NCBI GenBank assembly: GCA_903823115.1
Contig: CAIJRN010000019.1
Location: 1-64,000, forward strand
DNA: 64,000 nucleotides
Source of the DNA: an uncultured cyanobacterium
Lineage (GTDB): Bacteria > Cyanobacteriota > Cyanobacteriia > PCC-6307 > Cyanobiaceae
Direction of reading: 5' to 3'
Part shown: positions 2,749 through 20,105 of the stretch, one piece after another
Layout: every line of letters begins with the position of its first letter
Position numbering within the stretch: position 1 is the stretch's first letter
The notes under the pieces: generated by a model
Databases searched by the model: none
Told to the model about the DNA's origin: nothing
What the model saw: only the letters and a program-made list of their open reading frames with translations
Program-made: the position numbers and the translations under genes

Positions 2749-2880
2749 TCATGCAACAATTGCTACATGGGAAGAGCGCTGGAGATAACGGAGGAAGTTG
2801 AAGGTCAGGTTCTTGAGGCCCCACCAAGCCTCATTCCTCTCTAGCCCAATCTTTCTTGTCAGCTTTCCGCCCATGGACAT
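2749..2880 (-). pseudogene. transposase C-terminal fragment
   Basis: A 43-codon minus-strand frame encodes a Lys/Arg- and Trp-rich tail (RNEAWWGLKNLTFNFLRYLQ) that resembles the C-terminal segment of IS5/IS4-like DDE transposases, which commonly end with a helix of the form GLKNLxxNxxR. The upstream catalytic part is absent. The fragment sits directly beyond the end of the IS3-like remnant. The family is uncertain. Confidence 0.45.
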
Positions 2881-3400
2881 GGTCTGATGTGGGTGCCTTT
2901 TGTTGGGCAGTTCTGGCCCCTTATATCGTTAACCCCAGATGGGAGGAAGGGCTTGGCCTCAGTATAAACCTCATGGGGAGTTCTGCCTCCTAGGGAGCTG
3001 TGTGGCCTGACATGGCAGTACCTCCATGGGAAGCTGGCCAGGCTGATTTCAGCTTTCCAGCTGACCACATTCCTGGAGAAGTGATCCACGATCGCCATCA
3101 GGTCGAGAAATCCTTTCTCCAGCGGGATGGAAGTGATATCAGTGGCCCACACCTGATCCACTGCCGTGACCAGGCGAGATCCACCAGGCATGGAATGTGC
3201 TTAGATAAATCCCCCGGTAACCGTGCTGCGAGGTTTCTGGTAGTTCGCCCGTAAACACATGTGGCGCAAGAGGTTTCGCAGGCAGCTTCAGGATGGGGCT
3301 GCATCCAGCCCGACCAGCCCCGGCCGTTGCTTCTCGTGTCCGCTCCGCTCGACCGACGCTTGCCCAAGTGCCGTCGGCCAATTTAGCCTTGAGGGCGCGA
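2859..3400 (-). mobile_element. decayed IS3-family transposase (orfB) remnant
   Basis: Minus-strand codons from about 3191 encode DQVWATDITSIPLEKGFLDL and IVDHFSRNVVSW, the first catalytic region of the IS3-family integrase core (DDE enzymes). The frame then jumps directly to PHSSLGGRTPHEVY, the typical C-terminal signature, so the segment holding the second Asp and the catalytic Glu is deleted in frame. Upstream residues (LAPHVFTGELPETSQ) lie in another frame, showing at least one frameshift. The right side degenerates near 3400. The left end contains a terminal-repeat-like stretch at 2889-2920. The element cannot move by itself. Confidence 0.7.
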
Positions 3401-3467: not shown

Positions 3468-4225
3468 ATGACAGATCCGCAAATCCAAGCCTATGACTCC
3501 GCTATTTTATGTCCAGTCACACGGGATTGATACGGCAGCTCGGATTTTTATAACGTTGGCTACTGGAGCTCATCAACCCTGACGCAAGCCGAGGCATCCA
3601 CTGCATTGGTCAATCGCTTGCTTGATTGTCATACTCAATATCCAGGAGCCGTCCTGGATGTCGGTTGTGGATTGGGTGCAACCACTTCGGCGATCAAGCA
3701 CCGTTGGCCTGATGCCCATGTCATTGGCATTAATCTTTCGGAAGCCCAGCTCGAATATTGCCGAAGGAATCATGGCGATTGTGATTTTGCAATGATGAAT
3801 GCTGCGGATTTACAATTTAGCGATAATACCTTTGATGTGATTTTTCCGCTGAAGCAGCATTTCACTTCAACACTCGAGTCAATTGTTTAAAACAGGCTTA
3901 CCGGTCTTTAAGGCCGGGCGACTCACTGCTTTTGTGCGACATCCTCCTGGATCGCGATCACCCTTTTTCAAGAAAAATGTTGGCATGGGATGCACTTGCC
4001 AGCCTTGATCAATCAAGCCCAGACAACTATAAAGTCTGCCTTGAGGATTTAGGTTATCGCAACATTCTTGTTGAAGATGCCACCGAGCAAACCTGGCGGA
4101 GCTGGATAAGGCAGCTTATCCATCAAGCCGAAGTGAATGGCGCTGCCGTCCCACACATGAAATTACATGACCCCAATCGCTCAAGCGTAGTGGCCTACGA
4201 TGTACTGGTTTCCGTTAAAAAATAA
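3468..4225 (+). pseudogene. SAM-dependent methyltransferase with one stop and one frameshift
   Basis: From ATG 3468 the frame reads as a small-molecule methyltransferase, interrupted by TGA at 3528-3530. The intact relative at 4313-5233 has Trp at this point (RRWYGDSDYYNVG against RD*YGSSDFYNVG), which fits a TGG-to-TGA change. It continues through motif I, LDVGCGLGATTSAIKH, then needs a frameshift near 3843, after which SAEAAFHFNTR, LRPGDSLLLCDILLD and the C-terminal half follow to TAA 4225. The full restored protein would be about 250 residues. It is more AT-rich than its relative, so the two look like separately acquired homologues and not a recent local duplication. Confidence 0.8.
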
Positions 4226-4312: not shown

Positions 4313-5233
4313 TCAATGGTTCCCGCCCGGTTGACGGCCCGGCTTTCGCGCCCTGGCAAGGACGTAGTACGTCACGGCATCGATCAGGGATGGTGTGGTG
4401 CGTCGCCAATGGTCCATCTTCCCCTCGGGAATTGTGCCCCGTTCGTGCTCCTCGGCGAGCCAGGTATTGAGGCGATCCAGCCAGGTGTGCCAGGTCATCG
4501 CGGTGGCATCCTCCACGTCGACATCAACGAATCCCGTGTCATGCAATTTCTTGATATAGGCGGCAGGATCCTCCAGTTTGTTCGCTCGGTCCACGTCCCA
4601 GATCGACATGTTCCGGGCGAAGGCTGAATCATCGAGCAGGATGTCGCTCATCGCCAGGGTGCCCCCCGGACGCAGCACTCTACAGGCCTCCATCAGGAAA
4701 GCCTCACGCGTATTGAAATGATTGGCAGCTTCGAAACAGGTGATGAGGTCGAACGAGCCGCTGGGAAAAGCGAGGGCCGCAGCATCCATCCTCACGAATT
4801 CGCAGTCGGGTGCGTTCACCCGACTGCGCTCGAGTTGGACGGGTGAAATGTTGATCCCTACGACCCTGGCCTGCGGCCAGCAGTGCTTGATCTGCGCGGT
4901 GGTGGACCCGAGGCCGCAGCCCACGTCGAGCACGGCGTTGATCGCTTCGGTCGCCCCTCCGATCAGCCGGTTGACGAGCGCGGCCGATGCCTCCTGAGGC
5001 GTACGGATCGAATCGCTCCACAGGCCGACGTTGTAGTAGTCGGAGTCACCGTACCAACGACGCATCGTCGGAGAAAAGATGATGCTGTCATAAAACAGGA
5101 TCTGTGGATCTTCAGACGCTTCGTTCAACGATGGAATCTCCTCGACGGCACCTATACTTCCGCAAGCCATATCACGCCCCGCTTTGTTGTCGCTGGTTGA
5201 GCCGGCTGATCCCAGGGGGCATGGCAGGGTCAT
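4313..5233 (-). CDS. class I SAM-dependent methyltransferase
   Basis: The frame encodes up to 306 residues; translation may start at the internal Met 22 (MACGSIGAVEE). The family hallmark is motif I, LDVGCGLGSTTAQIKH, about residues 102-117, followed by VVGINISPVQLERSR, an Asp-containing strand FVRMDAAALAFP, and LRPGGTLAMSDILLD. The order matches O- or C-methyltransferases of the UbiE/tocopherol-methyltransferase-like group that act on small molecules. It is 27 bases downstream of the sulfotransferase at 5261-5965 on the same strand, so the two are probably co-transcribed. Its decayed homologue lies just to the left in convergent orientation. Substrate unknown. Confidence 0.75.
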   Translation of the reverse strand: MTLPCPLGSAGSTSDNKAGRDMACGSIGAVEEIPSLNEASEDPQILFYDSIIFSPTMRRWYGDSDYYNVGLWSDSIRTPQEASAALVNRLIGGATEAINAVLDVGCGLGSTTAQIKHCWPQARVVGINISPVQLERSRVNAPDCEFVRMDAAALAFPSGSFDLITCFEAANHFNTREAFLMEACRVLRPGGTLAMSDILLDDSAFARNMSIWDVDRANKLEDPAAYIKKLHDTGFVDVDVEDATAMTWHTWLDRLNTWLAEEHERGTIPEGKMDHWRRTTPSLIDAVTYYVLARARKPGRQPGGNH

Positions 5234-5260
5234 CCAGTCGGCGCACGGAAAACCGGTTTG

Positions 5261-5965
5261 CTACCGCGGATCAGACCGATCGTGGGCCCCGGCATAATCT
5301 CCCCGGTTTTCATGCGGGAAGGGGACGTCAGGCAACGGCTGTCCGAGGAACGCGCAGAGGGGATCCCACGACGTTGACTCTTCCCAGCAGACTTCCAGGA
5401 GTCGGCCTGGCTTATCGGCGAAGAAGTCGCGCACACGTTCGTTGTGGATGCGGTGGAGGTCATCGATCGGAACGCCAGGGAGGAAGCGCTCGGCAAGCTG
5501 TCTCCCGAGCTCGATTCGCTGCGGAGGAATCGTGCGCATGTGATTGTAGAAGCTGCGCCGCCAGATGTCGTCATCGCGGCGGCGTGTGAGAACAAAACGG
5601 GAGTCTGGATAGCTGACGGAAAGTCGCTCATAGAACCAGAACCAGGGAAAGTCCTCGAAACTGTCATAATCCCCGGTGGCGGCGATCACGGCGTCGGGAG
5701 TGCTGATGGCGGCTGGGACCAGATCGTCCCGGATCGAGCAGTTGTGGTAACCAAGCTCCCGGAAGCAGCGTCCCAGCGTCTTCGTGCCCGACTTGGCGAT
5801 CCCCACCCCGAACACCTTGGGTCGCGCGCTGGTGGAGGCGTCCGTGGCCGCGGGGGAAATGGCAGCGGAACGGGAGCCCGAAAGCCAGGGGAAGAGCCGG
5901 TTCAGGGACGGAAATGGCACGAAGCAGTTCCTGCAAGGGGAGCGAAACCGGGATCTATCCTGCAA
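5261..5965 (-). CDS. sulfotransferase family protein
   Basis: The 234-residue protein carries VFGVGIAKSGTKTLGRCF near residues 51-68, the 5'-phosphosulfate-binding loop of sulfotransferases, and SRFVLTRRRDDDIWRRS near 120-136, the usual position of the 3'-phosphate-binding Arg/Ser segment. It resembles the Sulfotransfer_4-like group. The first 45 or so residues are low-complexity and the true start may be internal. It forms a likely operon with the methyltransferase at 4313-5233 and is divergent from the sulfotransferase at 6034. A decayed second copy of its N-terminal half lies at 17640-17940, about 78% identical by eye. Confidence 0.7.
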   Translation of the reverse strand: MQDRSRFRSPCRNCFVPFPSLNRLFPWLSGSRSAAISPAATDASTSARPKVFGVGIAKSGTKTLGRCFRELGYHNCSIRDDLVPAAISTPDAVIAATGDYDSFEDFPWFWFYERLSVSYPDSRFVLTRRRDDDIWRRSFYNHMRTIPPQRIELGRQLAERFLPGVPIDDLHRIHNERVRDFFADKPGRLLEVCWEESTSWDPLCAFLGQPLPDVPFPHENRGDYAGAHDRSDPR

Positions 5966-6033
5966 CAGGATCGATGGTCATCGTACCTCCGATGGTCGTT
6001 TCGTCCGCCTGATGAACCCAATCCGGAAGTGAC

Positions 6034-6669
6034 GTGATGCCGGCCAAGCGTCTGGTAATGATCTTGGGTTTCCAGCGCTCCGGCACGACGGCGATGTTCG
6101 AGACGCTCGCCTCGTCGCCGGGGGTATCGCCCCGTCATGAGGAGGCCGACGACGACATCTACGACGACTATTTCCTCCGGCCCGAGCCCCAGATCCGTCC
6201 GCTGCTCGCGGCACTCCCCGGGACGGTGCTCCTCAAGCCGGTGCGGGAGAGTCGGCGCCGGTCGCCCCTGGAGGTCGCCACTGAGTACAGCGATTACGAC
6301 CTCTCGATCATCTGGCTCTACCGCGATCCGGTGAATGTTTTTCAGTCATGGCTGGAGAAGGGTTGGGTCAAGTCCATGCCCCAGGAATTCGCCAGCCACT
6401 GGATGACGCGCAACGAGGGGTGCCTCGACTCGCGGGGCGCCCTCGGCGACACCTTGGTCATGGTCCGCTACGAGGATCTCGTCGCCCATCCAGCATGTGT
6501 GGAGGATCTCGCCGGGCGGCTGGGACTCGCAGTCCAATCCACCCTCCGGGCCGACCGCAACGTTGGCCGGACCTGCCTCCCGGCCGACGTGCAGGAGAAG
6601 ATCGATGCTGTGACTCGTGCAACGCTCGCAACACTCGACTACGCCCGCTCGATCCGCCCGCCGGCGTGA
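6034..6669 (+). CDS. sulfotransferase
   Basis: A compact 211-residue protein begins LVMILGFQRSGTTAMFETLA (residues 7-26), a clean PAPS 5'-phosphosulfate loop. IIWLYRDPVNVFQSWLEKGW follows near residues 91-110, the 3'-phosphate-binding R-DP-S segment of bacterial sulfotransferases. It is shorter than the usual 250-300 residues but has both PAPS motifs. It lies 140 bases upstream of the cyclase-like/UbiA/glycosyltransferase operon on the same strand and may share its transcript. A role in sulfating the product of that operon is an inference. Confidence 0.75.
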   Translation: MMPAKRLVMILGFQRSGTTAMFETLASSPGVSPRHEEADDDIYDDYFLRPEPQIRPLLAALPGTVLLKPVRESRRRSPLEVATEYSDYDLSIIWLYRDPVNVFQSWLEKGWVKSMPQEFASHWMTRNEGCLDSRGALGDTLVMVRYEDLVAHPACVEDLAGRLGLAVQSTLRADRNVGRTCLPADVQEKIDAVTRATLATLDYARSIRPPA

Positions 6670-6808
6670 TGAAGGGGGCATTGAATGAACAGCAGCGTCG
6701 AGGAGCGCAACGGCGGCCCGGGTCACGGCCGGATGGTCGACCAGCATTTAGGCTCACTCCTTGAGCTGAGCCAAAAGTCCCCATGATCGCCGCTCTCCCT
6801 TCAGTGGG

Positions 6809-7948
6809 ATGGTTGAACCGGCGAAGGACCTTCAGCCTCATGCCTCTGGGGCGAAGAGGTCAGATGACACCGTGACGGGGCCCGTGCCGAACAAGGCCGA
6901 GCTTTCCCCTGCCACCCGCGCTGGGGTGGAGTTTTTGATGCGGAGTCAGCTGCCCTGGGGCCAGTTTCCCATTGAACGAACGCGGCGCAATCTTCCCGGC
7001 TGGCCGGTGGAAGAGGATCACTCTCCGATCGCTACGGCGTATATCCTCCACGCCCTTGCGTCGATCCCCCACCCCGCCGTGGCCTCGATGACGGCACGGG
7101 GCATCGACTACTTCCTCGGCGAGATGGATGGCCACGGCCTATGGCGTTATTGGAACAAAGGATCAGTGCAGAGCGGACGCCAAGCCCATCCCTTCATTCC
7201 CGCCGATTTGGACGACATGGCCTGCATCTCGGTGATTCTGCGGCGGGAGGGAATCCCCTTTCCTGACAACCGCCGCCTCATGCTCCACAACCGCGATCGC
7301 CAGGGGCGTTTTTACACCTACCAGATTCTCCGCGCCGTCCCCACGCTCGATCCAATTTATTGGTGGGCAATGCTCCGCGACTTCACCTGGCAGCGCTGGT
7401 TCATCTACTGGCGATCACAACCGACCACCTATGACGACGTCAGCGGCGTTGTCAATGCCAACGTGATCTGGTATCTCGGTAATCATCCCAAGACGCAAAA
7501 GGCTATCGACTGGTTGATCGGGATCGTGGAGGCCGGTGAAGAATCGGATTGTGACACGTTCTACCACGATCCTTTTCCGCTTTGGCACGCAGTCTCGCGG
7601 GGCTACGCCGCCGGTGTGACACGTTTCGCGGTGATTCGTGAGACAATCCAATCACGGATCGAGGTTTATCTCCTCCCCAACGGCTCGATCGCGGCGCCGG
7701 CAATGCACACGGCCCTGGCGATGTCGGCACTGCTGAACTTCGGGGTCGAATCCCCCTTCCTCGCCGACGGGCGGCTGTGGCTTGAGGGGAAGCAGGCCGC
7801 CGATGGCGGATGGGATGCCTGCCCGATGTATTTCGGGGCCCGTCTCAGGCAGAACAGCTGGGGCTCCCGCGCCCTGACCACGGCGCTGTGCCTCGAGGTG
7901 ATGCAACGCCAAGTCGATGCGGAGCGACGATCCGGGGGGGCTGGCTGA
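6809..7948 (+). CDS. terpene-cyclase-like protein (squalene-cyclase/prenyltransferase alpha-alpha barrel fold)
   Basis: The 379-residue protein shows features of the squalene-hopene-cyclase/prenyltransferase-beta fold. PADLDDMACIS at 131-141 contains D133-L-D-D136, matching the DxDD acid motif of class II terpene cyclases. KQAADGGWD at 328-336 matches a QW repeat (Q-x-x-D-G-G-W). A tract rich in Trp, Tyr and Phe (residues 184-202) could line a hydrophobic pocket. At 379 residues it is much shorter than hopene cyclases (about 630) and would form a single barrel. Its stop overlaps the UbiA start in TGATG, which implies translational coupling. The start at 6809 is a guess; ATG 6941 (residue 45) is an alternative. 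Cyclase activity is inferred, and a non-catalytic barrel protein is possible. Confidence 0.6.
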   Translation: MVEPAKDLQPHASGAKRSDDTVTGPVPNKAELSPATRAGVEFLMRSQLPWGQFPIERTRRNLPGWPVEEDHSPIATAYILHALASIPHPAVASMTARGIDYFLGEMDGHGLWRYWNKGSVQSGRQAHPFIPADLDDMACISVILRREGIPFPDNRRLMLHNRDRQGRFYTYQILRAVPTLDPIYWWAMLRDFTWQRWFIYWRSQPTTYDDVSGVVNANVIWYLGNHPKTQKAIDWLIGIVEAGEESDCDTFYHDPFPLWHAVSRGYAAGVTRFAVIRETIQSRIEVYLLPNGSIAAPAMHTALAMSALLNFGVESPFLADGRLWLEGKQAADGGWDACPMYFGARLRQNSWGSRALTTALCLEVMQRQVDAERRSGGAG

Positions 7949-9000
7949 TGCGCCTGAAAACACTCCTCCGCGCCCACCGCTGGTGGGACACCCAAATCCC
8001 GGTGATGATGGCCTTGGTGTATTGCGTGCTGGCGCAGGCCGAGCCGGCCCCGGCGGTGGCGGCGACGCTCGGCACCCTCGCCCTGTTCCTCGTCGCCTCG
8101 GTGGGTTTCGCCGGTTTCGGCCATCTTTTCAACGATCTGTTCGACATCCAACAGGACGTGGAAAGCGGTGCGTCGAATCTCGTGGCCGGCCGCCATCCGC
8201 TGCGCCTGGCGGCCACCTTCATCCTTGTGCTCCTGCTGGCCTGGGTGCCGTGGCGCTGGTTGCCGACGACCCCTGCGGTGTGGACCCTCCTCGGGCTTGA
8301 GTTCAGCCTCTTCATCCTCTACAGCCTGCCGGGTGTGCGGCTCAAGGAGCGCGGCATCCTCGGGCCGATCGCCGACGCTCTTTACTCCTGGACGATCACG
8401 ACGGCCGTGGCGCTCCTCGTCTTCGCCCGGCTCGGCGCCGTCGTGGTGCCCGCCTGGGCTTCGGCGATCCTGGCCGCCTGGGCATTCGTCCTCGGCCTGC
8501 GCCACATCCTCACCCACCAGATCGAAGATGCCGGCCGTGACCAGGCGGCGGGCATGACGACGTATGTGACGCAACACGGGTGGCTGCCGACGTTCCGGAT
8601 CCTCCAGCGTGTGCTCCTGCCGGCGGAGGCGCTCCTCTTCCTGGCACTTTTGCTGGGGATCGGGGTCGACGCCCCGATCGTGCCGATCGGTTTCCTGCTC
8701 TGGACGGGCCTCATGGTTGCCCGCGAGCGGGATCGGGCCGTGCAGTGGCCTGCGGTCAAGCAACGGGGCCCGGCGATCCATCGGCTGTTCTTCTTCAACA
8801 TCACCGTCCTCCAGCGCTTTTACACGCTCTGGTTTCCTCTGCTCACGCTCGTCGTCCTCGTCGTCCGGCATCCCGCCTATCTCCTCCTGGGGATCCTCCA
8901 TCTGATCCTGTTCGAGAACGGAGTGGCGGTGTTGTTCCGGACCGATCTCCCCGACTTCCTCCGGCGGCTCCGCGCCGCTCCACCACGGGAGCTGGCATGA
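7948..9000 (+). CDS. UbiA-family prenyltransferase
   Basis: Translation from ATG 7948, inside TGATG with the preceding stop, gives a 350-residue polytopic membrane protein. The first Asp-rich motif is NDLFDIQQD (62-70, NDxxDxxxD) and the second is EDAGRDQAAG (193-202); both bind Mg-prenyl-diphosphate in UbiA enzymes. YSLPGVRLKERG (125-136) matches the conserved loop near the active site. About eight or nine hydrophobic helices are visible. It should attach an isoprenoid chain to an aromatic or sugar-like acceptor at the membrane. Coupling to the DxDD protein upstream and the glycosyltransferase downstream (ATGA overlap at 8997-9000) suggests one pathway. It is not a close match in context to the chlorophyll, heme or quinone UbiA members. 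Confidence 0.85.
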   Translation: MRLKTLLRAHRWWDTQIPVMMALVYCVLAQAEPAPAVAATLGTLALFLVASVGFAGFGHLFNDLFDIQQDVESGASNLVAGRHPLRLAATFILVLLLAWVPWRWLPTTPAVWTLLGLEFSLFILYSLPGVRLKERGILGPIADALYSWTITTAVALLVFARLGAVVVPAWASAILAAWAFVLGLRHILTHQIEDAGRDQAAGMTTYVTQHGWLPTFRILQRVLLPAEALLFLALLLGIGVDAPIVPIGFLLWTGLMVARERDRAVQWPAVKQRGPAIHRLFFFNITVLQRFYTLWFPLLTLVVLVVRHPAYLLLGILHLILFENGVAVLFRTDLPDFLRRLRAAPPRELA

Positions 9001-11549
9001 GCCGATCTCCCCTGGCCACAAAGGTGATCGTCGGCCTGCCCCACTGGGCGGTGGGCGGGCCGTGCGTCTTCGCCGAGCGCTTGGTGCGCGGCTTGAGGGG
9101 ACGTGGCTGGGATGCCTCGGTCCTGCTCACCGAGGCGGGGTGCACCAAGGTGTCGGCGCCGACGAGCTCCGCCTTCCCTCCTGTCGACATCCCCTGCCAC
9201 AGGCTGCCGGTACGCCCGGACGACCCCTGGGGGGTGCGCTGGGAGGCAATCATCCGCACGCTCGAGACCTCCGCGCCCTGCCACTACCTCATGCTCCACG
9301 ACTGGCGGAACAACGTTGTCGCCCCCCGGCTCTCCGACCGGGTGACGCTCATCGGGCTCCTTCAGGCCGACAACGAACTCGACTTCGAGCAGGCCGGCAG
9401 GCTCGGCCCCTTCTGGAACGCGATCGTGGCTGTCGCCGACCCGCTCCAGTTCGCGTTCGCCCACCGCTTCCCCCACCTTGCCCACCGCGCCCTCACGATC
9501 CGCAACTGCGTTCCCGATCACCCCGAGCCTCCGCCCAAACCCCAGACCGGCCCGCTGCGGATCGCCTACTCCGGTGAGCTGCGCCGCTCACAAAAACGGC
9601 TCGACGACATGATTGCCGTGGCTACGGCCCTTACGGCCAGGGGGCTGGCCTTCGAGCTCACGCTGTATGGCGATGGCGAATACCGGGAGGAGCTTGAAGC
9701 GCTCGCCGCCCCGCTTGTGGCGGCGGGGAGGGTGCGGTTCGCGGGGCGACTCCCCGCCTCCAGCCTTACCGATGCGATGGCCGACCAGCATGTCTTCCTG
9801 CTCACGTCGCAATTTGAGGGTCTCTCGATCGCGATGTTGGAGGCGATGAGCCGCGGCTGCGTGCCGGTGGTGTCGGAGCTCGTCACGCAGTCGCTCGTCG
9901 TCCGCGATGGCATCAACGGCTTGACATGCCCCGTCGGCGACATCGGTAGCTTCGCCACGAATCTCGCCCGCCTCGCCGGCGATCCGGCGCTCCGTGAGCG
10001 CCTCTCGCAGGCCGCCTTCGAGACGATCCGCACCGGAGGCCATCGCATCGAGGACATGCTCGATGGCTACGAAGCACTCTTCGCCCGCCTCGACGCCCAG
10101 GTCGAATCGGGGGCGTTCAGGCGGTGGTGCGACTGGCTGCGGCTGCCTCCTGAACGCGTGGGCACGACGGAGATCCTCACGGCATTGCCGGGGGACCCCT
10201 GCGGCCGTCTCGCCCTCGATCTCGACTTCATCAACGCCGTTCCGGTGTGGCCCGGTCGCCCGTCGCTCCCCGCCGCACCTTCCCTGCCCCCGGCCCGGCC
10301 GACGGCGCCGCCTCCCTTCGAGGCTCACAAGGTGATCGTCTCGGCAGTGGGGGGGCAGATCAGCGGTGTCGACACGTTCACCGTCCACCTCCTGCGGCGC
10401 CTCCGCGGGATGGGAATCGATGCCCGCGTCCATGGCAACCGCGAACTCGCCGATCGCAGCGGCCTGGCGATCGCCGCCGATATTCCGGTCGACCCCCGCG
10501 AGACGCCGACCTGGATGGGATGGCCGCAAGCTTGGCAGGCGATGGTCGACCACCTCGAATCCCAGGCCCCCTGCATCTACATCCCCAACTACGACTACGA
10601 ATACTCCGGGATCATTCCCCGCCTCTCCGAGAGGGTCCGCGTCGTGACGATCTGCCACAGCGACGATCCGATGCACTATGAGCACACCGCGCGGCTGGCG
10701 CACGCCTCCGACGCGATCGTCGCCGTGAGCAGCGCGATCCGGTGCCACCTCGAGGGGCTCCTGCCGAACCTCACCGGCAGAATGCACACGATCCCTTATG
10801 GCATTCCCGGGCTCGCCACAGTCTCCTCCGCACTCCCTCCTCCGGAGGGCGTCCTCCGCGTGGTCTACATCGGCCGCATGATGCGCTACCAGAAACGCGC
10901 CAACGACGTCATTGCCATCGCCGCGGCCCTCGATCGGCGCGGCATCCCCTTCGAGCTGCTCGTTGTCGGCGACGGGCCGGAACGGACGGCGATGGAGCAG
11001 CAGGGTCGCCGGCTCGTCATGCGACGGAAGCTCGCCTTCCTGGGAACACAGCCCAACGACGACGTTCTCGATCTCCTCGGCAGCTGCGATGCCTTCCTCC
11101 TTCCCTCGGCGTTCGAGGGATTGAGTGTGGGGATGCTCGAGGCGATGGCGCGCGGCGCCGTGCCGGTCGTCAGCGCCATCCGCAGCGGTGTGCCGGACGT
11201 CATCCGCCACGGCGAGAACGGCCTCGTCGTTCCTGTCGGCGACATCGAGGCTTTTGCCGACGCCCTCGCCCTTCTCCAGGCCAACCCGCAGGTCCGCGGG
11301 CTCCTGGCAGCGGAAGCGATGCGGACGATCCGCGATGAGGGCTACCTCGTCGACACGATGTTCGAGCGCTACCTCGCCCTCTTCAGAGAGGTGGCCGCGG
11401 CGCCGTCGCTTCGCATCGCGGGGCCGTTGCTGCCACCAGCGCATCTCCGCGCCGAGGGGACATTCTCCGCCTGGGCCCGGCGCGTCGCTTCCGATCCGCT
11501 CGCCTCGGCGGAACGCGTCTTGGGCCGGTTGGTGGCACGCTCGTCCTGA
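8997..11549 (+). CDS. tandem double GT4 glycosyltransferase
   Basis: Starting at the ATG that overlaps the UbiA stop (ATGA), this 850-residue protein contains two GT4-type glycosyltransferase units. The first covers about 1-390 (LRIAYSGELRRSQKRLDD; FEGLSIAMLEAMSRGCVPVV) and the second about 440-800 (LRVVYIGRMMRYQKRAND; FEGLSVGMLEAMARGAVPVV). Both keep the E-x7-E-like nucleotide-sugar motif and are similar in layout, pointing to duplication within the gene. They are joined by a Pro/Ala-rich linker near 425-440. The protein is predicted to be cytosolic or membrane-associated and to add two successive sugars to a lipid or glycan acceptor. Being coupled to UbiA, it could glycosylate the prenylated product. 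Confidence 0.8.
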   Translation: MSRSPLATKVIVGLPHWAVGGPCVFAERLVRGLRGRGWDASVLLTEAGCTKVSAPTSSAFPPVDIPCHRLPVRPDDPWGVRWEAIIRTLETSAPCHYLMLHDWRNNVVAPRLSDRVTLIGLLQADNELDFEQAGRLGPFWNAIVAVADPLQFAFAHRFPHLAHRALTIRNCVPDHPEPPPKPQTGPLRIAYSGELRRSQKRLDDMIAVATALTARGLAFELTLYGDGEYREELEALAAPLVAAGRVRFAGRLPASSLTDAMADQHVFLLTSQFEGLSIAMLEAMSRGCVPVVSELVTQSLVVRDGINGLTCPVGDIGSFATNLARLAGDPALRERLSQAAFETIRTGGHRIEDMLDGYEALFARLDAQVESGAFRRWCDWLRLPPERVGTTEILTALPGDPCGRLALDLDFINAVPVWPGRPSLPAAPSLPPARPTAPPPFEAHKVIVSAVGGQISGVDTFTVHLLRRLRGMGIDARVHGNRELADRSGLAIAADIPVDPRETPTWMGWPQAWQAMVDHLESQAPCIYIPNYDYEYSGIIPRLSERVRVVTICHSDDPMHYEHTARLAHASDAIVAVSSAIRCHLEGLLPNLTGRMHTIPYGIPGLATVSSALPPPEGVLRVVYIGRMMRYQKRANDVIAIAAALDRRGIPFELLVVGDGPERTAMEQQGRRLVMRRKLAFLGTQPNDDVLDLLGSCDAFLLPSAFEGLSVGMLEAMARGAVPVVSAIRSGVPDVIRHGENGLVVPVGDIEAFADALALLQANPQVRGLLAAEAMRTIRDEGYLVDTMFERYLALFREVAAAPSLRIAGPLLPPAHLRAEGTFSAWARRVASDPLASAERVLGRLVARSS

Positions 11550-11563
11550 GACGGACTTGCGCG

Positions 11564-12742
11564 TCACCGTCGGACGGGCAGGCTCCTCAGTCCGCGCACC
11601 CGTTCATGGCGTCGCCATGACGGCCGAAACGTGCGCGGGTCGGAGACGTCGAGATGCAATTCCCCCAGTCGCGCGTTGATCCTCGTGAACACGATTCGTG
11701 CTTCGGTGCGTGACAGCAGCGCCCCGGGGCAGCCGTGGATCCCGATACCGAAGGCCAGGTGCGGGTTGGGTGCCCGCCCGATATCGAATCGATCGGCATC
11801 GGCGAACACGGATGGGTCGCGGTTCGCCGCGCCGAGACAGGCGAGGATCCGGTCCCCGGCAGCGATTGACTGCCCGCCGATCTCCATCGGCTCCTTCGCC
11901 GCGCGCACGGAGGGGAAGTGGGTGGGGCTCTCGAAGCGGAGCATCTCCTCCACCGCCGGGCCGATGAGCTCCGGGTCCTCCCTCACACGGGCGTATTGGT
12001 CCGGATGCCGCAGGAGCAGGAGCATGCCGTTCCCGAGCAGACTGGATGTCGTCTCGTAGCCGGCAAGGAGCAGCAATACGCAGGTGGCAAGCACCTCTGT
12101 CATCGAGGCCCGCCCCCCGTGGGCTTGGGCCGCCAGGAGCGGGGTGACGAGATCTTCGCCGGGGCAGCTTTCGCGTTCGCGGATGATCCCCGCGAAGTAA
12201 TCAGAGAGCCGCCCCATGTTCCGCGCCGACACCTCGGGGCCTCCCGCCATGTCAGCGCAGGCCCTCAGCATCGGAAGATCGGCGATGGGGAGGCCAAGAA
12301 GACCCATCATCACCCTCCCTGGGATTCGATCGGCGAAGTGCTCCACGAAGTCGAATTGGGAGAGTTCGGCGATGCTGTCGATCTGTTCATCGGTGAGCGC
12401 TGCGATCCGCGATTCGAGGGCCCGAACTCCCGCCCCGCCAAACGCATCGGCCACGAGGCTGCGGAGCCGGCCGTGATCGGGAGGGTCGTGGGCCAGCATT
12501 GTGTCGCCGAGCACTCCGGCCTTCTCCGTCCGATTGGTCACCAACGGATTCCGGAATAGTGCCGACACCTGATCATGACGGGAGACAATCCAGGCCCCGT
12601 GCGCTGGGGAATGGAAAGGGCCCGGCTGGGCGAGCCATCGGTTGTAGGTCGGGTAGGGATCGAACCGGAACGCTTCCGCCGCGGCGTCGACCACTGGATC
12701 GTGGAGGGTCAGCGTCTGCCGGGCTGCCGAATGATGGAGCAC
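11564..12742 (-). CDS. cytochrome P450
   Basis: A 392-residue soluble bacterial-type P450. The I-helix oxygen-activation motif is LLAGYETT (225-232), the K-helix ExxR is E266-R269 (EEMLRF), and the heme-binding loop is FGIGIHGCPG (331-340) with Cys338 as iron ligand. Length and motif spacing are normal for class I CYPs, which need separate ferredoxin partners; none is encoded nearby. It converges on the glycosyltransferase gene (14 bases between ends). The sulfotransferase reading frame upstream overlaps its start by 34 bases on the same strand. It is likely a tailoring hydroxylase for the island product; the substrate is not predictable. Confidence 0.9.
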   Translation of the reverse strand: MLHHSAARQTLTLHDPVVDAAAEAFRFDPYPTYNRWLAQPGPFHSPAHGAWIVSRHDQVSALFRNPLVTNRTEKAGVLGDTMLAHDPPDHGRLRSLVADAFGGAGVRALESRIAALTDEQIDSIAELSQFDFVEHFADRIPGRVMMGLLGLPIADLPMLRACADMAGGPEVSARNMGRLSDYFAGIIRERESCPGEDLVTPLLAAQAHGGRASMTEVLATCVLLLLAGYETTSSLLGNGMLLLLRHPDQYARVREDPELIGPAVEEMLRFESPTHFPSVRAAKEPMEIGGQSIAAGDRILACLGAANRDPSVFADADRFDIGRAPNPHLAFGIGIHGCPGALLSRTEARIVFTRINARLGELHLDVSDPRTFRPSWRRHERVRGLRSLPVRR

Positions 12743-13737
12743 GTTGCCATGCCCCCGCCATCCTCTCCAGCGAGAATGGCATCGCAGCGAGCGAGCCAGC
12801 CGATGGCATGCCCCCCGAACCGCTCGGCCAGGGCAGCGATCCCCGGCCGAGATGTCCGGGCCATCTCACGCAGCACCTCCGGCGGAATAACCGCCTTATT
12901 GCCCACGGATTGGTGACCCCTGCTCCTTGCCTCAGCGAGAGCTTGCGGCTCGGCGGGGTCGACGCCGAGGAAGGTCAGCACGCGCAGCAACATTCCTTCT
13001 GGATCGGCGAGGATGTCGTCATACCAACCGATAAAGAACCGCTCCGGCGGTACATGCGCCTCCCAGGTATCGATCGTGCGCAGGTAGTCGTTGCGCGCAT
13101 TGACGCGGTCTGAGGCGAAGAATCTCATTGGATCGGGCTGGGGAGGGATGCCGAGACCTCGGGACTCCCGCGACTCCATCTGCCATTGCGAGCACATCCG
13201 CGACAGCGGCTCGCGGAGGATGAAGATCACCTTCACATCCGGGGACAGGCGGGCGACATGTCGGACACCGGCGTCATCGAGGAGGGCATAGGCGGGGGTG
13301 ATCTCTCCCTTCAGCCGCCCGGCGCCTGCGACAAATTGACGACGGTACCAAGCATCGTCCTTAGCCCCCGGGAGATGGAACGAGGCGGCCCGCCTCACTT
13401 CCATTCCGTTCGCCGCCGACAGCCCACCGCGAACGATCTTCTGCATGGTCTATCCAACGCGCTGACGCCAGCCCCGCTCCGCGGCCCCCTGTCCGACAAG
13501 CCCAGACCACAGGCTCCTGACCTGTGTGAACTGCGGGCCTCGGCCTGTGAGGCGATCAAAGTAATGGAGCTCCTTCGTCCCGGGGAGGTAGAGCTGCGGA
13601 TGCCGTTGCAGGCACCGATAGAGCCAGGTGGTACCTGCCCTCTGGGCACCGATGCCGAGAAAGTCGACGGTGGGGAGCATCATCAACGGGACCGTCTTAG
13701 GTGGATGGCTACTGAAAGTGGACGGCGATCGAGACAT
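12709..13737 (-). pseudogene. sulfotransferase interrupted by an in-frame TAG
   Basis: Reading from ATG 13737, the frame gives the PAPS loop VDFLGIGAQRAGTTWLYRCL and KELHYFD, then reaches TAG at 13452-13450. One codon later the same frame continues at 13446 for 245 residues with KGEITPAYALL, VKVIFILREPLSRMCSQWQM (the 3'-phosphate-binding Arg-Ser segment) and a normal C-terminal part. Read through, it would be a 342-residue NDST-like sulfotransferase. The downstream frame alone lacks the PAPS loop and would be inactive. A single nonsense mutation, a sequencing error or amber readthrough are the options; the first is favoured because other genes in this island also carry single stops. Confidence 0.75.
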
Positions 13738-13840
13738 TCCTAGAGGATTTTAGCCCGCAAAGACATCGCCTTGATTCACCCCCCGCGCTCTCGCTTGTAA
13801 GCTGGCATCAAGGGGCTCCTAACGAGCCTTTGCCCCCCCG

Positions 13841-14998
13841 GTGCCCGACTGCATTCTCCATTACGGCTTCCCGAAGACCGGCTCGACCGCCATCCAACGG
13901 GCGCTGTCGGAGCACTTGGCCGATCCCCGCTTCGTCTACTCGCACTTCCAGGATCCGATCCACGACCACGGCAATCACAGCCGCGCCATGGCCACCGCCT
14001 TCAGCGACCGGCCGGAGGTGTATCACACCCATGTGGCGGAGGGTGTTTCAGCCGGGATGCTTCTGCAGGAACGTGGCAGGTTGCTCGGCCGCCTCGACGA
14101 TGAAATCACGGCCCTTGCCGAAAGAACCTTCCTCCTCTCCAACGAGAGCCTGAGCTTCCTCCGCATCAACGGCTTGCATCGGCTCCGTCAGTTTCTCGAG
14201 GAGCGCCATCTCAGCACCCGGCCCGTCGGCTACATCCGCACCCTGCGGGAAAACTTCGAGGCTTCGTTTGTCGAGAAACTCAAGCATCGGCAGAGTTCGC
14301 TCGATGATTTCTTTGAAGGTAGGGCCATAGGACCACGCTCCCAGATCACCACCCTCGACAAGGTGTTCGGACAGGCAAACGTCCTGATTTGGAAGTACGA
14401 ACGTCGCTCGTTCCCAGGCGGATGTGTTGTGGCAGACTTCTGTCAACGGCTGGGAATTGATCGCCCTGCCGTGATCGATCGGGAAGCCAACCGTTCACTC
14501 TGCTTGCCAGCTGTTCAGCTACTCCTTACCTACCGTCATTTCCTCCCTGCATCCCCACCGGGCCGCCGAACGATTGAACAAAACTCCGCCCTGATCGCGG
14601 TCCTCGGCGAGATTGCCGGGCCGAGGTTCCGCTTCCACCCCCTTCTTCTCGAACCGGTGATCCGCGAGCACGGCAACCACCTCGATTGGCTCGAGGAGCG
14701 TGTCGGGGCGTCGCTCCGCGACGGCATGGACGACGACGCTGGACCATCGATCCGCAGCGAGGAGGACCTCCTCGACTTCTCCCCGGAGTCGCTCGACTGG
14801 CTTGCCTGGCGCACCGGCTGCGCCGCCGGCAGCCTGGCCGGTAAAGATCCCCGCGCCGTGGCCGAGGCCGTCGATCGTCTCCGGAAGATCGCCGTCGCCG
14901 AGCAGGTCGCTGCCCAGCGAAAAGCGGTCGGTCTCCCCGCCCGGCTCCGGCAGCGGAGCCGCAGGCTTCTGGCCAGCTTCGGGCGCTGGTCACGATGA
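13841..14998 (+). CDS. sulfotransferase-like protein
   Basis: A 385-residue protein that starts at GTG 13841 with CILHYGFPKTGSTAIQRAL, a PAPS-type loop. STRPVGYIRTLRENFEASFVEKL at about 124-146 fits the 3'-phosphate-binding region, although the pattern is divergent. The C-terminal third (after about 290) is rich in charged helices and has no recognised domain. Similar long P-loop proteins occur in polysaccharide loci of marine bacteria. Its stop overlaps the ATG of the truncated glycosyltransferase that follows (ATGA), so the two were once an operon. Activity and substrate are inferred from the fold only. Confidence 0.6.
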   Translation: MPDCILHYGFPKTGSTAIQRALSEHLADPRFVYSHFQDPIHDHGNHSRAMATAFSDRPEVYHTHVAEGVSAGMLLQERGRLLGRLDDEITALAERTFLLSNESLSFLRINGLHRLRQFLEERHLSTRPVGYIRTLRENFEASFVEKLKHRQSSLDDFFEGRAIGPRSQITTLDKVFGQANVLIWKYERRSFPGGCVVADFCQRLGIDRPAVIDREANRSLCLPAVQLLLTYRHFLPASPPGRRTIEQNSALIAVLGEIAGPRFRFHPLLLEPVIREHGNHLDWLEERVGASLRDGMDDDAGPSIRSEEDLLDFSPESLDWLAWRTGCAAGSLAGKDPRAVAEAVDRLRKIAVAEQVAAQRKAVGLPARLRQRSRRLLASFGRWSR

Positions 14999-15140
14999 AA
15001 ATCCTCCTGCTCAACGCCTAAGGAGTGCTGGCGTTGGCCACCGAGTGCATCGTGCTCTCGTTCCGTCACGCACTGCGCCGCCGCGGGCACGAAGCCCGGT
15101 TGTTCGCATCGACGGCTGCGGTCAGCCGGGCTACCGAATC
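14995..15140 (+). pseudogene. GT4 glycosyltransferase N-terminal stub
   Basis: ATG 14995 overlaps the preceding stop and encodes MKILLLNA followed directly by TAA (15019-15021). After the stop the same frame goes on with TECIVLSFRHALRRRGHEARLF, the first beta-alpha unit of a GT-B glycosyltransferase. Homology by eye fades after about 15140 and no full-length frame follows. This is the remnant of a glycosyltransferase that lost most of its body and also carries a nonsense codon at position 9. Confidence 0.6.
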
Positions 15141-15340
15141 TCGCCGAGGCCACGGGCTACGGCACGACTGGCACCCTGCGCCCCCCTCCAGGTCGCCAAT
15201 CCTTTGGCGGCACCGTACGGCGGGCCACTGGGCTCCGATGCTCCGCCGAGGTGATCGCCGTCACCACCGTCGGTCTCAGGCTCTTTTGCTGGGCTTTCCG
15301 CTAGCGACCCGGACCAGGGCCGGGCGTGAACGCTTGGTGC

Positions 15341-16588
15341 TCATGGGGCCGCTCGCCCGCCGATGTCTCCAAAAACCTGCTCGAGCCGATCGGCGAATGA
15401 TGCGCACGCATCAGCGGGCACATCTCGGGCGACGCGATCCGCTGCGGCTTTGCCGATCGCCTCCCATTCGTGCCGGCGCAGCCACGCCCGCTCGAGCGCG
15501 GCGTCGTAGTCGTGCTCGGTGGCCGCCCCGGCCACGAAGCCCTCCACGCCGTCGTCGACCAGTTCCCGCGCCCCTCCGGCTGCGGCCACGATCGGCACCC
15601 TGCCGCACTGCATAGCCTCGACCTGCGCCAGCGCCAGCCCCTCCGCGCGCGAGGGGAGGACGAGGGCGTGATGGTCCCGCCAGACGGCGGTGATATCGGC
15701 AACCTGCCCGTGGAATCGGACGTTCGAAAGGCCGAGAAATCGGGCCAGATCGCGGAGCCCCTGCTCCATCGGCCCCTCGCCGTAGAAATCGACGTCGAGT
15801 GCACGGCCGCGCCAGCGGTCGCGGGCGAGAACGTTGAGGAGGACGTCCTGCCCCTTCTCCATCGGCCACATCCTCCCGACGCAGGCGAGACGGAGCCGAC
15901 CGTCACGGGATGCAGGCCAGGGGAGCGGCCCGGAGGTGTTCACGAGGGTGGGGTTGCGGACCACCTCGGCCCGGTCAATTTGTTGTCCGAGCTGCTGCTC
16001 GGTGATCCGTCGGTTGTGTTCCGAGACGAAGTAGACCCGTCGGGCGCCGCGGTAGGCGTTGGCGTAAACCCTCCGCAGGCTGTCGTGGGGCCAGTCGGTC
16101 TCCGACGACTTCTGGCAGATGATCACATAGGGCACCCGCGCCGCCCGACAGATGTCGGGAAGGTTGACCGGGCAGATGCCGTCGTAGGAGCCCCCCTGCG
16201 ACACCACAGCGAAGTCAGCGCGGCAACGACGCAGTTTCAGCGACAACCAGAGGTTGCGGGCATGAAAGGACGGGCCCGCGAAGCGCGGCAGGAACCGGAG
16301 GACCGCATCGGGGGCCGCCTCCTCGACCCCGCCAACCCGGAAGCCGCCCAGGCTGATCCCGGCCTGCCTCAGAGCCTCCCATCGCGGGTGGAGCGGTCCC
16401 CAGGGCCAAGGGCGGCTGCGGGCTGCACGGACATGAAATCCTCTGCTCCGGAGGGCCAGCGCGGCGCCGCTCCACAGCTCCTCGCTCCCTCCCCAGAGGA
16501 GCGGGCAGGAGGTGAGAAACATGATCCGTCCTCGCGGCAGATCGTCTCGTTTTGAGGGAGAAGGGGCCGGATCGCTCATGCAGGCCAC
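15341..16588 (-). CDS. GT4 family glycosyltransferase
   Basis: A 415-residue GT-B glycosyltransferase. The N-terminal domain opens with GRIMFLTSCPLLWGGSEELW (about 20-39), the acceptor-side glycine-rich loop. The C-terminal domain has LRLACVGRMWPMEKGQDVLL and SRAEGLALAQVEAMQCGRVP, the GT4 nucleotide-sugar site with the E-x7-E pattern. The protein is full length; the start may be the second Met (residue 4). It is intact among decayed neighbours, on the opposite strand to the sulfotransferase-like gene. It probably transfers a hexose to a lipid-linked or glycan acceptor in the cytosol. Confidence 0.85.
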   Translation of the reverse strand: MACMSDPAPSPSKRDDLPRGRIMFLTSCPLLWGGSEELWSGAALALRSRGFHVRAARSRPWPWGPLHPRWEALRQAGISLGGFRVGGVEEAAPDAVLRFLPRFAGPSFHARNLWLSLKLRRCRADFAVVSQGGSYDGICPVNLPDICRAARVPYVIICQKSSETDWPHDSLRRVYANAYRGARRVYFVSEHNRRITEQQLGQQIDRAEVVRNPTLVNTSGPLPWPASRDGRLRLACVGRMWPMEKGQDVLLNVLARDRWRGRALDVDFYGEGPMEQGLRDLARFLGLSNVRFHGQVADITAVWRDHHALVLPSRAEGLALAQVEAMQCGRVPIVAAAGGARELVDDGVEGFVAGAATEHDYDAALERAWLRRHEWEAIGKAAADRVARDVPADACASFADRLEQVFGDIGGRAAP

Positions 16589-16775: not shown

Positions 16776-17618
16776 TCATCGTCCTGAGGGGAGGATCGCC
16801 CGGCACGCCTCGGCAAGCTTCACCGCGGCCAGCGCGTGCATTTCCGGGCTGGGGTAATACCGGTTGGCGAGCATGCGCCCCTCCAGAACAGTGCCGGGGA
16901 GGGGCTCCGCCGCGGGCCAGAGTCGCTGCGGCAGCCCCGCCGACGAGACGCACTCCACGACGCCGTCGGCATGTGTTCGGATCTGGTCAAGCATGACGTC
17001 ATCGACAAGCTGTGGATGGGCGTTGAGGATCCCGTGAAGCTTCCGGTCGTCGATGGCGTAGCGAGACGGCCGCTTCGACAGCTACAGGAGAATCTTCGGC
17101 GAGTGGACGCCCTGCAGGAGGCGAATCATGTTGCTCACGTAGTTTTGTCGCGTTTCTTCGACGACACGCCGCACCGTTGCCGGATCGGTGGATTCCATGA
17201 GCAGGTGCAGAAACGTCTCGAAACGCATCACGCTTCCGTCGGAGCGTCGGACACCGAGAGCCCCGCGCGTGGGATCGCAAGCGAAGAGCGAATTGCTCTC
17301 GCTCCGGGCCGCGAGCACCTGGACGACGACGGCCTCCGCTCCGTTGAGCCACTCGCCCCATGCTCCGCGCAGAAAGGTCGACGGACCGGCCCCCGCCACA
17401 CCCACATTGAGGACCTGCATTCCCAGCTGGCGCGCCAACAGTTCAGGAAACGGTTCCCGGCAGAACCTGCCGAAGGTCTGAGCCGCCCCGAGACAGACCA
17501 CCTACGGGCGCGTCCGGTCGACCGGAGGGCCCCGCAGCTTGATGCTCTTGTCGAAGGGGCAATCCCATAGGGCGTAATCGAGATGCGGGCTGTCGAAACG
17601 CTGGTAGTCGCTCCCCAT
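16776..17618 (-). pseudogene. DUF6473-like protein with two in-frame TAG codons
   Basis: From ATG 17618 the frame reads LDYALWDCPFDKSIKLRGPP, then TAG at 17504-17502, VVCLGAAQTFGRF, NVGVAGAGPSTFLRG, YVSNMIRLLQGV, HSPKILL, TAG at 17084-17082, LSKRPSRYAIDD, VECVSSAGLPQRL and NRYYPSPEMH, ending at 16776. As I recall DUF6473, a GDSL-esterase-like family often found beside sulfotransferases, it has Tyr at the first interrupted site and Trp at the second. No shift of frame is needed over about 280 codons. Two independent nonsense mutations are the simplest explanation. The family assignment is from memory. Confidence 0.6.
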
Positions 17619-17639
17619 CGTGCTTTTCCTGCTCCGGTG

Positions 17640-17940
17640 ATCTCGGCGCATTGGCGCCTCGTGAGAACGGAGGGGAGTCAGGATAGCGGACGCCGAGCGG
17701 CGCATCGACCAGAACCAGGGGAAGTCCTCGAAGCCATCGAAATCCCAGGTGGCAGCGATCACGGCCGCAGGGGCGCCGACGGCGGCCAGGACGAGTGCGT
17801 CGCGGATCGAGCGGTTGCGGTAGCCGAATTCCCGGAAGCAGCGCCCGAGCGTGTTCATGCCCGACTTGGCGATCCCCACCCCGAACACCTTGGGCAGCGC
17901 GTCGACCTGGCCTTCCGAGCGGACCGAATCGGCCCCGATC
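17640..17940 (-). pseudogene. sulfotransferase fragment, paralogue of the 5261 gene
   Basis: Minus-strand codons give PKVFGVGIAKSGMNTLGRCF through GFEDFPWFW, nearly collinear with the protein at 5261-5965. The bases are about 78% identical by eye over roughly 220 positions. Downstream the frame shifts (traces of RYPDS are in another frame) and the C-terminal half is gone. The N-terminal side is cut by IS debris at about 17950. The DUF6473-like gene starts immediately beyond the decayed end. Confidence 0.7.
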
Positions 17941-17949
17941 GCCCCTCCC

Positions 17950-19171
17950 GGCCTGTTTCATCCCAACGCCTCCCGTGGGCAGAGCAGGTTGGCCAGGCGG
18001 ATCAGGTTGTAGGCCACCCCATGCAGCCGAAACACCGCTCCCAGCCGAGATCGGCCTCTGGTCTTGCGCTGCCGGAGCCTTGCTGCCTGCTTGATCCAGC
18101 CAAACACCTGCTCGATCTGCGGGTCTGCATGTTCTGTGCCACATGCGGCGTGATCCCAGAGATGCGCAGATCAGCGACGAAGTCCCTGGTGTCGTAGCCC
18201 TTATCGGCTCCCAGCGTCTTCTGGTGAGCGCCCGGCAGCGAGCGCACGAACCGCACCGGTGCCGCCCGCACCCATCGCCATCTGCCGGCGTCACTTCGCT
18301 AGCCACCACCAGGCCATGGCGGTTGTCCATGAGGCAGTGGCCCAGGTGACTGAGATAGGACCCGCTTCCGCTTGCCACCACTGGGTGGTGGCGGATCGTC
18401 ATCAGTCCCGTCAATCCGCTCCAGGGAGTTGTGTGAGGCCCAGGCCCGCCGCAGAGTGCCATCGACCGAGACGTGCTTAGAACTCAGCAGAGGCTTGACC
18501 TCCGGCGAGGCCATCAGCAATTCCAGGAAGCAGGCCATCTGCTCTTCGTTGAGCAGTCGCTCGCGGTTCTAGTGGCTCCGCCACGATCGGCCTACGGCCG
18601 ATATAGGGGTGAATGTGGTGGGATGCCAGAGCGGATCGTCGGGGTTGAGGCCCACAAACCAGTGGAACAGCAGGTTGTAGTCCAGCTGATCGATCAGCAT
18701 CCGCTCCGAGCGGACCCCGTAGATCGCCTGCAGCACCTTCGCTTCCAGCTTTACTCTGGCCTTGCGGAGTACTTTGACCCGCTCTTGGTGGCGCTGGAGT
18801 TCCGGCGGCAGCTCATCGCCACGCTTGTCCTTGCCGTAGCGCTCATCTTCTTGGGCGTCGATCAGCTCGGCCGTACGCGGCAGCGCCGCCATCTCCGCCT
18901 CCAACTGCGCCTCTGCCTTGAGCATCCGCTCGTGGCTCATCGCTTTGTGCTTGGAGGGATTCCCTTTCATCCTGGTGCCATTCAGCGCTACGTTGTCCAG
19001 GCTCACAAGTCCCGCCTTCAGGCAGTGGCGTAGCACCGGCACAAACAGTCCCTTCAACGCATCAAGCTGAACACGGCGGAAAACATTGATGCGAGTGTTG
19101 CATCCTCGAGGCGCGCCCAAGGTGGTAAAATCAAATTTGAAAAATTGAACAATATGATCGCCTGCGTTCAT
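17950..19171 (-). mobile_element. hybrid debris of two DDE-transposase insertion sequences
   Basis: From right to left on the minus strand, 19160 to about 18735 encodes the middle of an IS1182-like transposase (VSLDNVALNGTRMKGNPSKH, HERMLKAEAQLEAEM, YGKDKRGDELPPELQ). At about 18725 it joins an IS5-like transposase (RSERMLIDQLDYNLLFHWFV, NPDDPLWHP, KHVSVDGTLRRAWASHNSL, KTLGADKGYDTRDFVADLR, GRSRLGAVFRLHGVAYNLIR). The IS5-like part has frameshifts near 18300 and 18100, an internal palindromic insertion at 18571-18603 with a stop beside it, and no intact catalytic set. Neither element is functional. The block separates the sulfotransferase genes from the ABC exporter. Confidence 0.7.
18571..18603. 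repeat. double mini-palindrome inserted in a transposase frame
   Basis: Two perfect adjacent stem-loops, GTGGC-TCC-GCCAC (18572-18584) and ATCGGCC-TAC-GGCCGAT (18586-18602), interrupt the transposase codons between PLWHPTTF and NRERLL, where relatives are continuous. The arrangement resembles small dispersed palindromic repeats reported in cyanobacterial genomes. Confidence 0.5.
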
Positions 19172-19219
19172 GATAACCTTTAATTTTCCAATTGATAACT
19201 TCTGCTTGAATTCTTGTCC

Positions 19220-20101: not shown

Positions 20102-20105
20102 CCCT

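Follow-up and report, generated by a model that had tools for sequence, protein, structure and literature searches.

A candidate gene cluster for an exported, sulfated and glycosylated cyclic prenyl lipid, built around a class II terpene cyclase and a UbiA prenyltransferase in a cyanobacterium

Introduction

The pairing of a prenyltransferase of the UbiA superfamily with a class II terpene cyclase is already known from the merosterolic acids, for which UbiA, a cyclase, P450s and aromatic-acid genes have been reviewed (PMC5618424). Here we describe such a pair in a window of DNA, positions 1-64000 of contig C19 in a 3.42-Mb picocyanobacterial genome. Like the Scytonema merosterolic acid pathway, with its UbiA-like transferase and the cyclase MstE, the window places a single-domain class II cyclase (P0001) beside UbiA (P0002), but here the pair is surrounded by sulfotransferases, glycosyltransferases and an ATP-binding cassette (ABC) exporter of the Wzm/Wzt type. 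Our preferred reading, to which we give a probability of roughly 60%, is that these genes spread horizontally as a cluster that makes and exports a cyclic prenyl lipid carrying sugars and sulfate; it draws on gene content and the recurrence of the set elsewhere.

Other described systems share parts of this arrangement. Among solved structures the cyclase domain is nearest to the HAD-TC-beta drimenol synthases AsDMS and AstC, and the Asp-Asp-Tyr of AsDMS is found in P0001 as well; P0001, however, lacks their HAD phosphatase and is paired with UbiA instead. NctPC likewise combines a prenyltransferase with an MstE-like cyclase and prenylates first, geranylgeranylating Trp and then cyclising it (PMC13290415), but its transferase is of the ABBA type and acts on a peptide Trp, whereas the window has UbiA and no YcaO was found in it. 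Loci for ABC-dependent glycan export of the Wzm/Wzt type resemble the window in having an ABC-2 permease, an ATPase with a C-terminal extension and glycosyltransferase genes nearby, to which the window adds a terpene cyclase, UbiA, PhyH and sulfotransferases. Each of these kinds of enzyme has been described before. In the open-access literature we found no described pathway that combines a UbiA-cyclase core with sulfotransferases, several glycosyltransferases and a Wzm/Wzt-type exporter, in agreement with a first-pass annotation of this DNA, made from the letters alone, which knew of no matching pathway in picocyanobacteria.

Results

A gene neighbourhood that recurs with the cyclase

The comparison set consisted of 13 loci with both cyclase and UbiA, from 11 lineages across Cyanobacteriota and Novosphingobium: the window; the Novosphingobium RL4 plasmid (L015); Nostoc pC052_D (L016); Spirulina (L013/L034); contigs C300 and C314 of Geminocystis GBBB08 (L018 and L032); two loci of genome G827, orthologous to the Geminocystis pair; and one each in G874, G776, G1040, G811 and G1014. 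UbiA is adjacent to or fused with the cyclase at all 13; single polypeptides that also contain PhyH and TPR segments unite the two in Spirulina CS-785/01, Nostoc C052 and elsewhere, a strong indication that both enzymes serve one pathway. In the window the cyclase, UbiA and a double family-4 glycosyltransferase (GT4) are one translationally coupled unit, since the reading frames overlap at TGATG (7946-7950) and ATGA (8997-9000).

Neighbours, in our own tally from the locus annotations, include sulfotransferases at 12 of the 13 loci (one lies 34 kb away from the second G827 locus), glycosyltransferases at 12 (C314 shows none in the part retrieved), a Wzm/Wzt-type exporter at 11 (the Spirulina pair lies at opposite ends of one contig, so that its adjacency assumes a circle) and PhyH dioxygenases at 10. 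The G1014 cluster includes an adenosine 5'-phosphosulfate (APS) kinase (PF01583, 221 bits) beside the exporter and sulfotransferases, which fits sulfation; an APS kinase is also encoded in the genome of the window. A cytochrome P450 occurs at one locus only, the window, and for that reason appears to be a local addition; we rejected it as a core enzyme, no match having been found in the other clusters. Six loci also have a fatty-acyl-AMP-ligase-like protein, whole or fragmentary. An AMP-ligase with carrier and thioesterase domains (L034:4868-7810; homologues in G874, G776 and G811) is kept in several fusion-type clusters and absent from the window; there it may add an acyl group.

The rough chance product for these groupings across six loci is 1.7e-11, an optimistic figure in that positions are taken as random, glycan genes cluster and two of the loci share a genome. 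The recurrence, this product and two permeases that are unique on their plasmids led us to reject chance as the reason why glycosyltransferase, sulfotransferase and exporter genes accompany the cyclase-UbiA pair. The first-pass annotation had assigned cyclase, UbiA, GT4, P450 and sulfotransferases to one sulfated, glycosylated cyclic prenyl-lipid pathway, a view at risk if the last two were associated with the pair by chance. For the sulfotransferases chance explains the association poorly: in two phyla, loci that are independent of one another combine cyclase and UbiA with glycosyltransferases and sulfotransferases. Much of the gene set recurs at 12 other cyclase loci, but the P450 falls out of its core and the product class stays conjectural. 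The conserved exporter and the PhyH dioxygenases had been missed.

A different reading of this recurrence is that glycan islands carry two distinct pathways side by side: cyclase and UbiA would make a small meroterpenoid, and the glycosyltransferases, sulfotransferases and Wzm/Wzt pair would make and export an unrelated sulfated polysaccharide. Such islands lend themselves to insertion, the cyclase is accompanied by two kinds of Wzm/Wzt pair, and at two loci no exporter was seen. This would leave unexplained why the PF01061 permease has a single member on the 1.8-Mb Novosphingobium plasmid and a single one on the 279-kb Nostoc plasmid, each at the cyclase locus, why the double GT4 is coupled to UbiA, and why the Nostoc cluster has PhyH fused to glycosyltransferases as well as to UbiA-cyclase; we consider it the least probable of the alternatives.

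Gene content of the cluster

Because genes of the window have counterparts in other cyclase clusters, we place the cluster limits at 508-21470, exporter included, wider than the 4313-16588 first proposed. The extension adds a PhyH-methyltransferase on the left (508-2454) and an ABC permease and ATPase on the right (19214-21470). The main features, with the evidence for each, are as follows.

508-2454, plus strand: PhyH-type 2-oxoglutarate dioxygenase fused to an S-adenosylmethionine (SAM) methyltransferase (PF05721 and PF08241)
3606-4225, plus strand: broken second methyltransferase copy in two fragments (53% and 31% identity to 4313-5233 across the fragments)
4313-5233, minus strand: SAM-dependent methyltransferase (PF08241)
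5261-5965, minus strand: sulfotransferase (PF17784)
6034-6669, plus strand: sulfotransferase (PF13469)
6809-7948, plus strand: predicted monodomain class II terpene cyclase P0001, 379 aa (predicted model, profile match, catalytic residues)
7948-9000, plus strand: UbiA-superfamily membrane prenyltransferase P0002 (PF01040, 44 bits against a cut-off of 34.2)
8997-11549, plus strand: two fused GT4 domains (PF00534 in two stretches)
11564-12742, minus strand: cytochrome P450 (PF00067; heme-ligand motif FGIGIHGCPG)
12709-13737, minus strand: sulfotransferase, a possible pseudogene given its in-frame amber codon (domain above cut-off in 12709-13446)
13841-14998, plus strand: weak sulfotransferase-like open reading frame with P-loop YGFPKTGSTAIQRAL (PF13469, E 0.068, under the cut-off)
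15341-16588, minus strand: GT4 glycosyltransferase of the recurring SCPxxWGGSEELW type (identity to GT4s of other clusters)
19214-20101, plus strand: ABC-2 permease, Wzm-like (PF01061 above cut-off)
20079-21470, plus strand: Wzt-like ATPase with a C-terminal extension of ~200 aa (similarity to Geminocystis C300 and Novosphingobium ATPases)

Every gene named in the first-pass annotation is present where it had been placed, with one sulfotransferase-like frame weak: the domain exceeds its cut-off at 5261-5965, 6034-6669 and 12709-13446 but not at 13841-14998. The operon overlaps it reported hold for cyclase-UbiA-GT4 and no further, the methyltransferase at 4313-5233, the sulfotransferases at 5261-5965 and 12709-13737, the P450 and the GT4 at 15341-16588 all lying on the opposite strand. 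Two of the three Sulfotransfer_3 genes in the whole genome are located in the cluster, which likewise speaks for more than a chance grouping. The P450, which has both the Pfam p450 domain and the Cys-ligand motif, finds its best solved relatives among PikC-like enzymes, and the exporter pair has the ABC-2 permease and C-terminally extended ATPase of the Wzm/Wzt type. A fragment of a DUF6473 protein lies at the cluster edge (17082-17501).

The window PhyH domain is 47% identical to PhyH of a G827 cluster and 31% to that of the Geminocystis C314 cluster, whose methyltransferase matches 4313-5233 at 36% identity (E 1e-67). For the GT4 at 15341-16588, identity is 36-41% to the GT4s found in the clusters of Geminocystis C300 and Novosphingobium, and 46-56% to contig C7, which belongs to the genome of the window. 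The permease is 34% identical to that of the C300 cluster, and the ATPase 36% identical (E 3e-79) to its C300 and 32% (E 2e-46) to its Novosphingobium counterpart; the sulfotransferase at 12709-13737 is related to those of the Spirulina, Nostoc and Geminocystis clusters. By comparison the P450, the double GT4 and both sulfotransferases at 5261-6669 look local. Contig C7 (L012:1-5138, 5.1 kb) holds a second, truncated UbiA with 39% identity to that of the window, a frameshifted WGGSEELW-type GT4, a family-2 glycosyltransferase (GT2), another GT4 and an ABC transporter.

The cyclase and the order of prenylation and cyclisation

P0001 has no Pfam match, so genome-mining tools based on such models may overlook it. 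A profile of six homologues matches the drimenol synthase AsDMS (E 6e-17), AstC and squalene-hopene cyclase. The predicted model (pTM 0.79, with weak loops at 115-129 and 174-208) adopts the alpha-barrel beta-domain fold shared with AsDMS, MstE and squalene-hopene cyclase (Z 27-31). Its best match is AsDMS (Z 31.3 over 285 residues); MstE follows at Z 27.7, although similarity to it in sequence is very weak (profile E 1e-3), and unrelated alpha-barrels score ~20. The published catalytic residues of AsDMS, D331, D333 and Y427 (PMC12365925), align with D133, D135 and Y252 of P0001, the two aspartates falling in a PADLDD motif at residues 131-136. All three are invariant in 16 of 16 homologues, the fourth position of the D133-x-D135 motif being D, T or V, and we propose D135 (in D133-L-D135-D136) as proton donor with Y252 as its helper. 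On the strength of the model, P0001 is a class II terpene cyclase with predicted activity. At 379 aa, with a fold match to the TC domain only (model residues 31-369) and no Pfam HAD match, it has no HAD phosphatase domain; squalene-hopene cyclase as an identity was dropped, P0001 being too short and the NCBIfam model not fitted. The cyclase tree groups the window with Novosphingobium on long branches, so that we draw nothing from this grouping. Two cyclases flank one UbiA at L018:7824-11020 and at G827:2401626-2404838; in the L018 pair one has DVDDT and the other DIDTT, which suggests two cyclisation modes within one cluster.

P0002 retains both Asp motifs (N63/D67/D71 and D195/D199), which are invariant among the five homologues compared. 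It falls in no known UbiA subfamily, with all NCBIfam subfamily scores far under their cut-offs, and its best solved relatives, chlorophyll synthase and DGGGP synthase, are weak matches.

Which of the two enzymes acts first bears directly on the product. Like AsDMS, the cyclase could take a free diphosphate, farnesyl or geranylgeranyl, as its substrate, with UbiA then transferring the cyclic terpenyl group or itself serving as a UbiA-type terpene synthase and the later steps unchanged. AsDMS is indeed the best match by both profile and fold, and the basic residues with which AstC (K314/K451; PMC13244436) and AsDMS hold the diphosphate have K/R counterparts in several homologues. Yet P0001 has Tyr in the K314/R378 column, which is non-basic in several others as well, P0001 lacks the HAD domain, and, with AsDMS holding the substrate head as MstE does (PMC12365925), the rank of the fold matches is not decisive. 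Related cyclases in G459 and G697, moreover, lie in YcaO/ThcOx operons of the ribosomally synthesized and post-translationally modified peptide (RiPP) type, without UbiA and without a Wzm/Wzt-type exporter, a setting that fits cyclisation after prenylation. Because of these relatives and of the order established for NctPC (PMC13290415) we favour prenylation first, and regard cyclisation of a free diphosphate as unlikely, though it is the rival that we take most seriously. In the G459 and G697 operons (L031:9155-11279 and L066:1-10600) the cyclase stands beside a conserved 361-aa protein, and this pair of genes may correspond to the NctPC fusion; the label of prenyltransferase for the protein beside the G459 cyclase was not adopted, as it has no Pfam or PDB match.

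Distribution, transfer and decay

The cyclase profile was found in one of 300 genomes of the family to which the window belongs, in 6 of 390 of its class and in 11 of 391 of the Geminocystis order, where fragments and RiPP-type copies are counted; viral contigs gave no cyclase match. Several copies are on plasmids or plasmid-like contigs, and occurrence in proteobacteria rests on one plasmid, from the soil bacterium Novosphingobium. In the window, GC content is 45% at 508-2454 against 63-69% in the cluster core, and the island bears signs of rearrangement: transposase fragments read from the sequence at 2859-3191 and 18569-19171, the broken methyltransferase, a GT4 remnant at 15025-15615 and a truncated copy of sulfotransferase 5261-5965 at 17502-17888 (73% identity). 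The plasmid copies, the low GC at 508-2454, the transposase debris and the broken copies indicate horizontal transfer of the cluster together with local decay. Elsewhere, G145 (L014:10016-11183) retains the final third of a cyclase behind a truncated GT2, a remnant of a Geminocystis-type cluster and evidence of cluster loss.

Decay might have gone further, leaving the island in this genome a remnant from which no product is made. The debris just listed, the in-frame TAG after residue 95 of the sulfotransferase at 12709-13737 and the rarity of the cyclase in the family would all fit. Against this, the cyclase, UbiA, double GT4, P450, PhyH-methyltransferase, methyltransferase 4313-5233, GT4 and exporter have all kept their full length and their motifs, and we think a dead island improbable.

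Discussion

In the pathway that we favour, the membrane UbiA would first join a C15 or C20 prenyl chain to an acceptor, and the monodomain cyclase would then protonate the far end of the attached chain, through acid D135 with Y252, and zip it into rings, a step modelled on MstE and the NctPC cyclase domain, both of which act after prenylation. Hydroxylation by PhyH dioxygenases, here perhaps also by the P450, and methylation by the methyltransferases could follow; GT4 and GT2 enzymes would supply sugars and sulfotransferases sulfate from 3'-phosphoadenosine 5'-phosphosulfate (PAPS), before export by the Wzm/Wzt-type transporter. That all of these enzymes act on one molecule, in this order, and that this molecule is sulfated and exported, we infer from the genes. 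The product, probably a sulfated, glycosylated cyclic prenyl lipid, might stay in the membrane, as the first-pass annotation proposed, or be released.

Several observations weigh against this pathway. No gene in the window was recognised as making an acceptor, and none at 508-21470 as supplying an aromatic acid, although primary metabolism could provide such an acceptor. The closest solved relatives of the cyclase, AsDMS and AstC, use free farnesyl diphosphate; several genes of the window are broken or duplicated; the contigs of G874 and G811 showed no exporter; and the chance estimate assumes random positions although glycan genes cluster. By blastp, moreover, the P450, the sulfotransferases at 5261-5965 and 6034-6669 and the double GT4 are without a close counterpart at the other loci.

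It is tempting to go further and to imagine a bacterial glycan or oligosaccharide carried on a cyclised prenyl lipid instead of polyprenyl phosphate or diacylglycerol, in effect a saponin-like, exported, sulfated terpenoid glycoside spread between phyla on plasmids; we regard this as possible, if doubtful. The cluster does link meroterpenoid-type chemistry, with its UbiA and class II cyclase, to ABC-dependent glycan export and sulfation, fields that seldom meet, and its recurring and often fused genes make the function directly testable. One Nostoc strain that carries the cluster was isolated from the liverwort Blasia. Should exported, sulfated glycosides of terpenoids prove to be a new class of compounds, they would be relevant to cyanobacterial surface chemistry, to symbiosis and to enzyme discovery.

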